A stretch of DNA of 33,058 nt from Deltaproteobacteria bacterium (GCA_016875025.1 VGSH01000023.1:1-33058), one strand, 5' to 3'; numbered from the stretch's first letter, positions 14,892 to 22,493 are shown. Made by a program: numbers and translations. Notes: generated from the letters alone by a model not told the origin.

Positions 14892-15134
14892 TCAGGCCTT
14901 GTTGCTCATCAGGGGCTCGATATGCTTGAGAGCCATGCCGACGAAGGGCTTGGGCGTAACTTCCTTGGTGCACGCAACGACGACATCCTCGGTTACCATA
15001 CCGCCGTCGCCGACCTTGGCTACGATGGCCTCAGTCAGTTTTTTCTGTGTCATGGCGCGAAACGGCTTCGGTGAAGATTCAATCAGTTTATCATACATCT
15101 GCTTGCTGTTGGCTTCCCACTGTAATTCTGCCAT
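14892..15134 (-). CDS. PCP_red-like small protein
   Basis: An 80-aa soluble protein. The pattern LQWEANSKQMYDKL, then SPKPFRAMTQKKLTEAIVAK, then TEDVVVACTKE resembles the PCP_red domain found at the end of light-independent protochlorophyllide reductase subunits and as small proteins or extra domains in anaerobes, where it accompanies Fe-S redox enzymes. It is probably a structural or cluster-shielding module rather than an enzyme. I chose the ATG at 15134 because GGAG precedes it; the longer form from 15167 has no such site. It follows the CCG-domain gene by 69 bases and is the last gene before the operon terminator. The family call is moderate. Confidence 0.6.
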   Translation of the reverse strand: MAELQWEANSKQMYDKLIESSPKPFRAMTQKKLTEAIVAKVGDGGMVTEDVVVACTKEVTPKPFVGMALKHIEPLMSNKA

Positions 15135-15203
15135 GGTGCTCTCCTCTCTCAAAGGTTTACGCTGCAATTGTTCTCACTGACAAAGTAACGCACGTGCTTG
15201 CTG

Positions 15204-16442
15204 CTATCCGTCCATCGCCATGAGCATCAGGTCGGTCAGATCATAGAGCTTCATTTTTTCCTGATTGCGCTGCAGGGGATCGTTAAGGTTCTGCTCACAG
15301 TACGGACAGCAGGTCGCGATCGCGTCGGCCCCGGTCGCCTTGGCCTCTTCGATACGCTCCTCAGCGATCCTGAAGGCATGCTCGGGATAGGCGATGCGCA
15401 CCCCGGCGCCGGCGCCGCAGCACCAGCCCTGGTCCTTGATGCGCTCCATCTCCACCAGGCGCAGGCCCGGAATGGCTTTCAGGATATCGCGCGGCTCTTC
15501 GTAGATGCCGCAGTGACGTCCGATGTGGCAGGGATCATGCCAGGTAACGGTCATAGGTACTTCGCGGGTGAATTTGATGGTTCCGTCGGCAACGAGCTTT
15601 GCCAGCACCTGCGAAACATGCACGATTTCGATCCCGTCGGTTTCAATGCCGGGGACCTGCGGGAAATCGTATTTGAGCACATGGTGGCAGCCGGCGCAGT
15701 GCGTGATGATCTTCTTCACGCCGGCCTTCTTGAACATGTCCATGTTGCGCTTGACCAGGTCGAAAAACGCCGCGCGGTCGCCGATGCGGATTGCCGGGCT
15801 GCCGCAGCAGATTTCCTTTTCGCCGAAAATGCCTACGCTGATGCCGGCCTTGTCAAGCACCTTAACGACATTGATGATTTCATGCTGCAGCAGCGGGTCA
15901 AAGGCCGGTGTGCAGCCGACGAAAAACAGATAATCGCACTTTTCTTTAGAGGCATCCTTAACGGGAAGACCCTTGGCCCAGTCAGCGCGTTTGGTGCGCG
16001 GCTGCAGCCAGGGGTTGTCATAGTTCTTAATACTCTTGAGCAGCTCCTGGTGCTGGGGCAGCGGCCCGATCCCCATCTCGATCAGCCGGGTCTTCAGGGC
16101 CTCGGCCGCCTTGAGCGGCTCTTTTTCATTGAGGCGCAGACAGTTCATCTCACAGGCGCCGCACGAGGTGCAGGTATAGCAGATTTCGAGCATTTTCTCG
16201 GAATCCTCAACCTCGAAATCGCCCTCGAGCAGGGCGCGGATGATATGAAATTTTCCCATCGCGCTGTGGGAGAAAAAACGGTTGTGCCGGAATTCTGGGC
16301 AGATCTCGTTATACTTCGAGCTTTTAACATTCCAGCCCCACTGGTTCATGCACCAGTTGCAGCGCGCATCTCCCCAGGCCATCTCGCGATAGTCCTCAAG
16401 GGTGCGCTCATAGACCTTCTTGTCGATTTTTGGATATGTCAT
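15204..16442 (-). CDS. CCG-domain Fe-S protein (HdrD/GlcF-like), second paralogue in the operon
   Basis: A 412-aa soluble Fe-S protein. The N-terminal ferredoxin-like part has CNWC...ICPEF, in which the third cysteine of the usual CxxCxxC is Gln, and a complete CYTCTSCGACEMNC cluster motif. Two CCG domains follow: GCT...CCGSP...HCAGC, and HDPCH...WCCGAGAG...CCPYC, both with full ligand sets for non-cubane Fe-S clusters as in HdrB. Such proteins relay two-electron chemistry between a flavoprotein and thiol, quinone or other acceptors. It is paralogous to 19766-21055. It follows the AOR-like gene by 86 bases. Confidence 0.88.
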   Translation of the reverse strand: MTYPKIDKKVYERTLEDYREMAWGDARCNWCMNQWGWNVKSSKYNEICPEFRHNRFFSHSAMGKFHIIRALLEGDFEVEDSEKMLEICYTCTSCGACEMNCLRLNEKEPLKAAEALKTRLIEMGIGPLPQHQELLKSIKNYDNPWLQPRTKRADWAKGLPVKDASKEKCDYLFFVGCTPAFDPLLQHEIINVVKVLDKAGISVGIFGEKEICCGSPAIRIGDRAAFFDLVKRNMDMFKKAGVKKIITHCAGCHHVLKYDFPQVPGIETDGIEIVHVSQVLAKLVADGTIKFTREVPMTVTWHDPCHIGRHCGIYEEPRDILKAIPGLRLVEMERIKDQGWCCGAGAGVRIAYPEHAFRIAEERIEEAKATGADAIATCCPYCEQNLNDPLQRNQEKMKLYDLTDLMLMAMDG

Positions 16443-21055: not shown

Positions 21056-21083
21056 GAAATCCTCCATCTATCTGAAAATTAAA

Positions 21084-22493
21084 TTAAAAGCAAAGTTTAC
21101 CCGGGTTCATGATGCCGTTGGGATCATAAACCTTTTTAAGCTCCTTCAGCATCGCCGTATACGAGGCCGAGCGGCGATAGACCATGTCCGCCCAGGTTCC
21201 GTAGGGCCGGGTAAAAAAGGCGCCTTCATCAATGAGCTGTTTGGCCAGATCGGTCGTCAGGGAGCCGATGGCTTCTTTTTCAGCCTCATCCGCCGGATCG
21301 CAGGGAAAGCTGAACTGCAGATGGCAGGCACGGCCGCGCTCAAGGGGCTGCATGTAAACACCCACTTCGTTCAGGCTCAGTCCGTAGGTTGCGGCATAGC
21401 CCATGGCAATATCTTCATAGCCGGCGGCCCGGTCCATGGTGGTGATAAAGAACACGTCCTGTGACGGGGTCTTCCAGTAGTCGCCCGCGGGCAGGTTGCG
21501 CAGCTTGTCGATCATCATGTTTTCAAGGCCGGCAACGCCGCCTACGGTCCTGCCGGGCTGGAGCTGGAAGTCGGCCGCGATCTCCATGAGCGCATCTTCC
21601 TCATAGGCGATGCGCTCAAGCGGCCGGCGCGGCGCGCCCGCGATGACCTGAACGAGAATATAGCTGGGCAGGTCGGCCATCAGCTTGCAGAATTCCCTGG
21701 AATCGGCCGCGATGATCTGCGCCAGCAGGAACTTGCTCAGCACAAAACACTCATTGCCCACATGGCGGCGCTGCAGCTTGTAGATGGGGTCGGCTGCATC
21801 ACCGAGGTCGTCAAAACCGACGAAGAAACATTTCTGGTGTTTGGGCCGGTATTCGGTCTTTACGTTCAGCCAGCAGGCAATGCCCATGGTGCCCTGCGCG
21901 CCGAGGAAGGTGCGCCAGAAGTCGATGCCCGGGCCTTCCGGGTAGGCGCCCTGGCAGTGATCATCCGATGCCGAGCCCGTCCGGAACATGTCGCCCGTGG
22001 GCAGCACGACTTCCATGGTGAGCGCGGGCTCGCCGTATTCGTATTTGGGGATGAGCATGGGCTCGCGCTCGATCGAGCTTGTCAGGGCCGATGCTTTCGG
22101 ATGCGGGAACAGGGGATTCAAGGCCATCTGGTCATGCTCTTTGAGGGCGTCGTTCAACTGCTGCCAGGTAACGCCGGGCTCGATCTTGGCCTTGCGGTTC
22201 TGTGGGTCGATCTCAAGGATCTTGTTCATCCCGGAGAGATCCACGATCACGCCGCCTTGCTCCGGCAGCGTGGCCCCGTAAAAATGAATGCCCGAGCTTG
22301 ACGGCACCAGCGGGGTAAGCGTTTTATTGGCGAATTTCACCAGCTCCTGCACCTGCGCCGTGCTTTTCGGCTTTGCCACGGCAATCGGCTTCTTTGGAGA
22401 AGCAAGGCTGCGGTCAACGGAATAGAGCTCCAGGGTATCCTGATCATCAAGGACATTTTTAGAGCCGACAATATCCTTTAGCTCCTTAATCAT
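21084..22493 (-). CDS. FAD-linked oxidase (GlcD-like), first gene of the redox operon
   Basis: A 469-aa FAD-binding oxidase of the GlcD/D-lactate-dehydrogenase superfamily. The PCMH-type FAD domain includes PIAVAKPKSTAQVQELVKFA, the TPLVPSSSGIHFYGA flavin loop, GGVIVDLSGMNKILEID and GAQGTMGIACWLNVKTEY. The C-terminus ends with LKKVYDPNGIMNPGKLCF, a typical family ending. The substrate is unknown. ATG 22493 is preferred to 22517 because GAGGAGG lies at ideal spacing. It opens a minus-strand operon reaching at least 14892. The next gene, a CCG-domain protein, is its likely electron acceptor, as in GlcD-GlcF pairs. Confidence 0.88.
   Translation of the reverse strand: MIKELKDIVGSKNVLDDQDTLELYSVDRSLASPKKPIAVAKPKSTAQVQELVKFANKTLTPLVPSSSGIHFYGATLPEQGGVIVDLSGMNKILEIDPQNRKAKIEPGVTWQQLNDALKEHDQMALNPLFPHPKASALTSSIEREPMLIPKYEYGEPALTMEVVLPTGDMFRTGSASDDHCQGAYPEGPGIDFWRTFLGAQGTMGIACWLNVKTEYRPKHQKCFFVGFDDLGDAADPIYKLQRRHVGNECFVLSKFLLAQIIAADSREFCKLMADLPSYILVQVIAGAPRRPLERIAYEEDALMEIAADFQLQPGRTVGGVAGLENMMIDKLRNLPAGDYWKTPSQDVFFITTMDRAAGYEDIAMGYAATYGLSLNEVGVYMQPLERGRACHLQFSFPCDPADEAEKEAIGSLTTDLAKQLIDEGAFFTRPYGTWADMVYRRSASYTAMLKELKKVYDPNGIMNPGKLCF

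Follow-up and report, generated by a model that had tools for sequence, protein, structure and literature searches.

A run of seven genes, termed g1 to g7 here, occupies positions 14892-22493 on the minus strand of a 33,058-nucleotide stretch of DNA (hereafter the window) from a Deltaproteobacteria bacterium (GCA_016875025.1, VGSH01000023.1:1-33058) and encodes two flavoproteins, two CCG iron-sulfur proteins, a ferredoxin, a short protein of the aldehyde oxidoreductase (AOR) fold and a small PCP_red-like protein (Table 1). The host belongs to an uncultured group of oxygen-avoiding bacteria. All seven open reading frames of the first-pass annotation were found again, separated from g1 to g7 by its gaps of 28, 13, 46, 4, 86 and 69 bases, given that g2 begins at 21055, at an ATG behind a GGAGG site within a longer frame opening at 21067, and that g4 starts at 18137. 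Purine-rich Shine-Dalgarno-like sites lie upstream of the starts, the weakest before g5, in agreement with the strong ribosome binding sites claimed for nearly all of the genes, and an intrinsic terminator, earlier drawn at 14838-14862, was confirmed about 28 bases past g7 and ahead of the next gene. Terminator-like matches in the window show, as a class, no excess over shuffled sequences; the hairpin at the operon end is the strongest of them and is well placed.

The operon is real and conserved. Recurrence across genomes had been proposed as a check on the set, and the order g1-g7 is indeed kept at 57-90% identity in seven to eight genera of the window's family rather than in the window genome alone, and largely kept in a second family. 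The complete order is present in five genomes (G000, the window genome, and G001, G003, G005 and G008), and pieces limited by contig ends follow the same order in G004 (g1-g5), G006 (g3-g6) and G007 (g3-g7), in G009, where g1-g3 and g4-g7 lie at two contig ends, and in G010 and G015 (g2-g5). Among the 17 genomes sampled for the class, 12 contain a g5 orthologue or fragment distinct from full-length AORs, and the start of g5 at a contig end of G015 makes a thirteenth. Because the order is conserved across genera while the flanking genes differ from genus to genus, the seven genes are taken as the unit. A sulfate-reducing host was considered and rejected: dsrA above cut-off was found in none of the 17 genomes, so no link to sulfite reduction is drawn.

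Table 1. Features of the operon and its surroundings in the window.
Feature	Position	Strand	Basis
g1, VAO/PCMH-type FAD flavoprotein, 469 amino acids, first flavin subunit of the trio	21084..22493	-	Pfam, closest solved structures
g2, CCG iron-sulfur protein of the trio	19766..21055	-	two CCG domains, invariant Cys, Shine-Dalgarno site
g3, VAO/PCMH-type FAD flavoprotein, 522 amino acids, second flavin subunit of the trio	18184..19752	-	FAD_binding_4, closest solved structure
g4, ferredoxin, 114 amino acids, two 4Fe-4S motifs	17793..18137	-	Fer4-type matches, Cys motifs
g5, short cofactor-poor AOR-fold protein, 419 amino acids, predicted non-catalytic scaffold	16529..17788	-	AFOR_N, ligand loss, AlphaFold2 model
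g6, second CCG iron-sulfur protein, centre type of a paralogous trio	15204..16442	-	CCG domains, tree, 9ojn
g7, PCP_red-like four-helix protein, 80 amino acids	14892..15134	-	AlphaFold2 model, fold match, fused relatives
intrinsic terminator, operon end	14836..14864	-	13-pair stem, loop of 3, T tail, -22 kcal/mol
etfB (11385-12182) and etfA (10338-11327)	10338..12182	-	Pfam ETF; genus-level neighbours

The core of the operon, g1-g2-g3, is a trio of a newly described kind in the order FAD-CCG-FAD (FAD, flavin adenine dinucleotide), to which are added components, above all an inactive AOR that is probably a scaffold, which are undescribed in the literature searched. On the Pfam level, g1 carries FAD_binding_4 and the end of FAD-oxidase_C, and g3 carries FAD_binding_4 with no FAD-oxidase C domain; the closest solved structures are eugenol and vanillyl-alcohol oxidases, 4-cresol dehydrogenase and LctD for g1, and 4-cresol dehydrogenase for g3. 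Between them, g2 has two CCG domains and 18 invariant cysteines, with both CCG modules complete and one N-terminal cluster motif incomplete, a pattern in which it resembles g6, since the CCG cysteines of both proteins are complete and conserved and some of their N-terminal cluster motifs are one ligand short. Models of GlcD, GlcF, TfrB and LdhH match the operon proteins far below their curated cut-offs, so that no named enzyme among these fits.

When the g3 alignment was run against 84,980 species genomes, 169 relatives emerged; in most of the 80 loci kept, the match is accompanied by a g1-type gene and a CCG gene, arranged as FAD-CCG-FAD. Trio loci were found in Desulfobacterota, Chloroflexota, Actinomycetota, Spirochaetota and Asgard archaea, and 63 of 395 genomes of the phylum have a g3-family match at E <= 1e-50. 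One weakly supported branch separates the g1 from the g3 type in a tree of 90 flavoproteins, and the internal groupings of the two halves mirror one another, as would follow from inheritance of the trio as a unit. The 3.25 Mb of the window genome (G000) encode six trio flavoproteins of the g1 type. Neighbours of other trios include Amidohydro_2 and thiolase proteins, together with a UbiX-like protein read from sequence; in the window genome itself, several trios adjoin Amidohydro_2 proteins (L276, L277). As a separate observation, a Dehalococcoidia genome carries a tandem array of four g3-type flavoprotein genes with a peptidase-U32 gene after it (L064:2-5892).

Reports of 2026 present one clade of this very broad family as a GlcDEF-like heterotrimer abundant in organisms that degrade benzene anaerobically, comprising the 'Magic' Proteins #24-26 of a methanogenic degrader (PMC13101534) and BzS1_12970/80/90, which make up about one fifth of the detected proteome of a sulfate-reducing one (PMC13416013); more distant homologues probably serve other roles (PMC13101534, PMC13416013). 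The trios of Ca. Anaerobenzenivorax ORM2 ('Magic' #24-26) and of BzS1 (12970-12980-12990) are likened to that of the window by gene layout and domains: all share the order of a FAD oxidase with a FAD-oxidase C domain, a CCG/HdrC-like iron-sulfur protein and a FAD oxidase with FAD_binding_4 only, all are GlcDEF-like trios with VAO/PCMH-type FAD domains, and the domain split matches that reported for BzS1 (PMC13416013). The window operon differs in adding a ferredoxin, a short AOR, a second CCG protein and a PCP_red-like protein, and in that no CoA-transferase, MaoC or AMP-ligase gene was found among the neighbours scanned. The earlier statement that the composition has no precedent therefore stands for the whole seven-gene set, of which the open-access literature searched holds no description, but not for its core, which is widespread and already described.

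The second module pairs a ferredoxin with a reduced AOR. In g4, Fer4-type matches coincide with eight invariant cysteines arranged as CxxCxxCxxxC and CxxC...CxxxC. In g5, Pfam recognises AFOR_N only, AFOR_C being absent, and the protein keeps the N-terminal domain and remnants; its AlphaFold2 model (pLDDT 68, confident mainly over residues 1-225 and 356-419) resembles AOR structures, most closely over the N-terminal beta-sandwich domain. The cofactor of AorB of A. aromaticum is held by Arg75, Gly94, Arg181, Asp361, Asp504, Ile508, Cys509 and Val510, Mg sits on Asn92 and Ala182, and the [4Fe-4S] ligands Cys295, Cys298, Cys302 and Cys509 occur in 99% of the family (PMC10413684). Each of the roughly 30 short AORs aligned has other residues in place of Arg75, Asn92 and Arg181, whereas the full-length AORs of the window genome keep most of these three, and the domain bearing Asp504 and Cys509 is missing from g5. 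The [4Fe-4S] motif CxxCxxxC reads AxxCxxxA in the window g5 and is intact in sister families (L046, L047, L048 and L050) and in some remoter ones; taken with the changed pterin positions, this pattern indicates that the pterin site was lost group-wide and the [4Fe-4S] cluster repeatedly.

The description of g5 as a degenerate AOR is thus upheld, but the suggestion that AOR and ferredoxin act here as in class II benzoyl-CoA reductase is not, since a protein devoid of AFOR_C and of the tungstopterin ligands cannot act like BamB or AOR; a catalytic AOR was ruled out on the same grounds. As in class II WOR (WorLS), AOR-ferredoxin pairs and BamBC, an AOR N-terminal fold adjoins a ferredoxin subunit. 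The likeness ends there: the BamB tungsten active site is not retained in g5, nor, in the window's family, are the [4Fe-4S] ligands, and g4 has two clusters where WorS-type subunits have four.

Short AORs extend well beyond the operon, with about 36 of the 395 sampled genomes of the phylum scoring above 200 bits. In other Desulfobacterota, the ferredoxin/short-AOR pair adjoins NarI-like, cytochrome b561, Rieske/cytochrome b and CCG genes, that is, membrane modules of the quinone type. In G337 and G018 it adjoins a different, divergent FAD-CCG-FAD trio, followed in G337 by NarI-like and CCG genes, so that a trio, ferredoxin, short AOR and further CCG protein have been kept together or assembled more than once. 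The loci with divergent trios (L168:8253-14102 and L178:1701-8751) have an SCP2 protein upstream of the trio, ferredoxin and short AOR, L168 continuing with the NarI-like and CCG genes, and are a membrane-linked counterpart of the window operon. A further cluster conserved in Desulfobacterota (L164-L177, e.g., L169:8171-16158) combines ferredoxin, short AOR, a BPL_N-domain protein and cytochrome b561/NarI with multihaem-like genes, a CCG protein and an NMT1-type binding protein. A 2026 census of WOR proteins demanded both AOR domains (PMC13328260) and would for that reason miss short AORs, and literature searches for an N-terminal-only AOR found nothing relevant.

The last two genes supply a second CCG protein and a small helical one. 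With two CCG domains and 9ojn, an 'iron-sulfur-binding reductase', followed by HdrB as its closest solved structures, g6 resembles the CCG proteins of EtfD and heterodisulfide reductase, but it has no membrane domain and belongs to the trio-type CCG proteins. In the tree it groups with the central CCG proteins of a second trio type present in the same genomes (G000:C79, G004 and G005), and in G014 its orthologue sits between g1' and g3'; g6 may accordingly bridge two flavoprotein systems. The AlphaFold2 model of g7 is a confident four-helix domain (pLDDT 90). The label of PCP_red-like given to it earlier is favoured by its top fold match, the PCP_red domain 2kru (probability 0.96 but E 0.08), and by a sub-threshold PCP_red match over the corresponding stretch of a fused relative in the window genome; against it, no Pfam match above threshold was found for g7, DUF2621 being below threshold in 8 of 8 members, and a PDB sequence search gave nothing firm. 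Fusions of g7-like domains with NuoF-like (Complex1_51K) and NuoE-like (2Fe-2S thioredoxin-fold) proteins in the window genome suggest a role as adaptor to electron carriers linked to reduced nicotinamide adenine dinucleotide. Both fusions, g7-like/NuoF-like at L273:2562-4604 and g7-like/NuoE-like at L275:1320-2447, adjoin genes resembling 2-oxoacid:ferredoxin oxidoreductases (neighbours read from sequence), and the g7-like domain there is possibly an undescribed adaptor domain.

Read from the genes and predicted models, the best explanation, on which our confidence is evenly balanced, is a soluble dehydrogenase trio of flavoprotein type that a ferredoxin, seated on an inactive AOR scaffold, connects with a second CCG hub. 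Upon the observed genes, their conserved order, the cofactor motifs retained and lost and the recurrence of each module, we infer a single complex, the path and direction of its electrons, the docking of g4 on g5 and a role of g6 and g7 as outlet or inlet. The product would be a soluble, modular anaerobic oxidoreductase in which g1-g2-g3 form a GlcDEF-like FAD/Fe-S/FAD heterotrimer; one flavin site, with the more variable g3 favoured, would exchange hydride with an organic substrate, and g2 would carry electrons to the second flavin. The ferredoxin g4 would dock on g5 in the way that ferredoxins bind AOR or BamB, g5 serving as a docking scaffold rather than an aldehyde oxidoreductase because its tungstopterin and, in the window's family, its [4Fe-4S] cluster are lost. 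Electrons would pass from g4/g5 to or from g6, and g7 would link that hub to a carrier, of the NuoEF type or another. That the organic substrate may be cyclic or phenolic is hinted at by the VAO/PCMH relationship, the 'Magic' precedent and the neighbours of other trios. A broader proposal is put forward tentatively: an aldehyde oxidoreductase that once carried tungsten would now be a cofactor-free scaffold for a ferredoxin within flavoprotein/CCG complexes, and in the window's lineage it would join two GlcDEF-type units into one hub, an unrecognised class of anaerobic, possibly bifurcating dehydrogenase.

Several points weigh against the wired complex. In G014 the set is divided between a contig with g2-g4-g5 and a second with g3-g1'-g6-g3', so that some parts may stand outside a common complex; by descent, g6 is the CCG protein of a different trio type and may serve the other flavoprotein pairs of the genome; and the middle of the g5 model (residues 226-355) is of low confidence.

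An electron-bifurcating or -confurcating dehydrogenase working with EtfAB, in the manner of LctBCD, is unlikely. As in the LctBCD lactate dehydrogenase-EtfAB system, a GlcD-like flavoprotein lies near EtfAB, whose genes stand 2.7 kb downstream on the same strand; the window EtfB best matches bifurcating Etf structures (CarD, 4kpu and 5ol2), and EtfA or EtfB genes lie near 17 of 108 trio loci elsewhere, about one in six. The adjacency, however, is restricted to the window's genus (G000 and its congener G001), EtfAB being absent in three other genera from the 4-10 kb available downstream, so that the link drawn earlier between EtfAB and the seven-gene set does not hold beyond the genus. EtfAB was likewise rejected as part of the conserved unit, as a genus-level neighbour beyond the operon terminator, which separates it from g7. 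Unlike LctBCD, moreover, the operon has two flavoproteins, two CCG proteins and no 2-hydroxyacid motif, as well as ferredoxin and CCG outlets of its own. Bifurcation with EtfAB is possible on these sequence grounds, though not as a conserved property of the operon.

It is quite unlikely that the trio has the role proposed for the 'Magic' proteins, an unusual activation of a substrate that is aromatic or resembles a hydrocarbon, with g4-g7 recycling the electrons. The match in architecture and domain split to 'Magic' #24-26 and BzS1_12970/80/90 speaks for such a role, as does the closeness of the g1 and g3 FAD domains to phenol-acting enzymes; the breadth of the family and the probable divergence of its distant homologues (PMC13101534, PMC13416013) speak against it. 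The 'Magic' partners (class III CoA-transferases, MaoC, acyl-CoA synthetase and BamQ) were also not found among the seven genes and the ten flanking genes scanned. Beside the trio loci, type III CoA-transferases gave one weak match (L099), and the 'Magic' cluster was not recognised among the loci compared.

A plain 2-hydroxyacid dehydrogenase of the glycolate or D-lactate type with accessory iron-sulfur proteins is improbable. Escherichia coli glycolate dehydrogenase GlcDEF, like the window trio, joins two VAO-type flavoproteins to one CCG iron-sulfur protein, and the operon shares its GlcD/GlcF-like domains and subunit layout. The similarity is nevertheless very low, all GlcD/GlcF family scores falling far below cut-off, and GlcDEF has no ferredoxin/AOR module. 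The metal and substrate motif of 2-hydroxyacid dehydrogenases (GlcD/LdhD) is HxGDGNxH, which is absent from g1, g3 and all trio flavoproteins (0 of 90) but present in a GlcD-like neighbour in L162. Finally, although AOR-ferredoxin pairs are common and the window genome has nine further AOR-family matches in frames of full-length size, a catalytic tungsten AOR that oxidises a trio-made aldehyde and passes electrons to g4 is scarcely credible for a protein with no AFOR_C, replaced equivalents of AorB Arg75, Asn92 and Arg181, and no domain for Asp504 and Cys509.

Around the operon, a 131-residue protein (14396-14791) begins 45 bases past the terminator behind a good Shine-Dalgarno site, is seen conserved only within the genus and gave no Pfam match above threshold. 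An ArsP_1-type permease and an AAA_14/DUF4143 ATPase lie on the plus strand at 22790-25382, and upstream of the operon on the minus strand (25586-30270) are a PurF-like glutamine amidotransferase and carB, all of these genes being ordinary.

The enzyme that activates benzene without oxygen has long been sought, and the FAD-CCG-FAD trio is a leading candidate for it; the operon represents a conserved natural case in which such a trio is accompanied by a ferredoxin, a probable scaffold and a second CCG hub of its own. These conserved partners suggest a destination for the electrons of the trio, and the short AOR among them reveals AOR-fold proteins as including a widespread lineage that lacks the tungsten site and falls outside the two-domain census.

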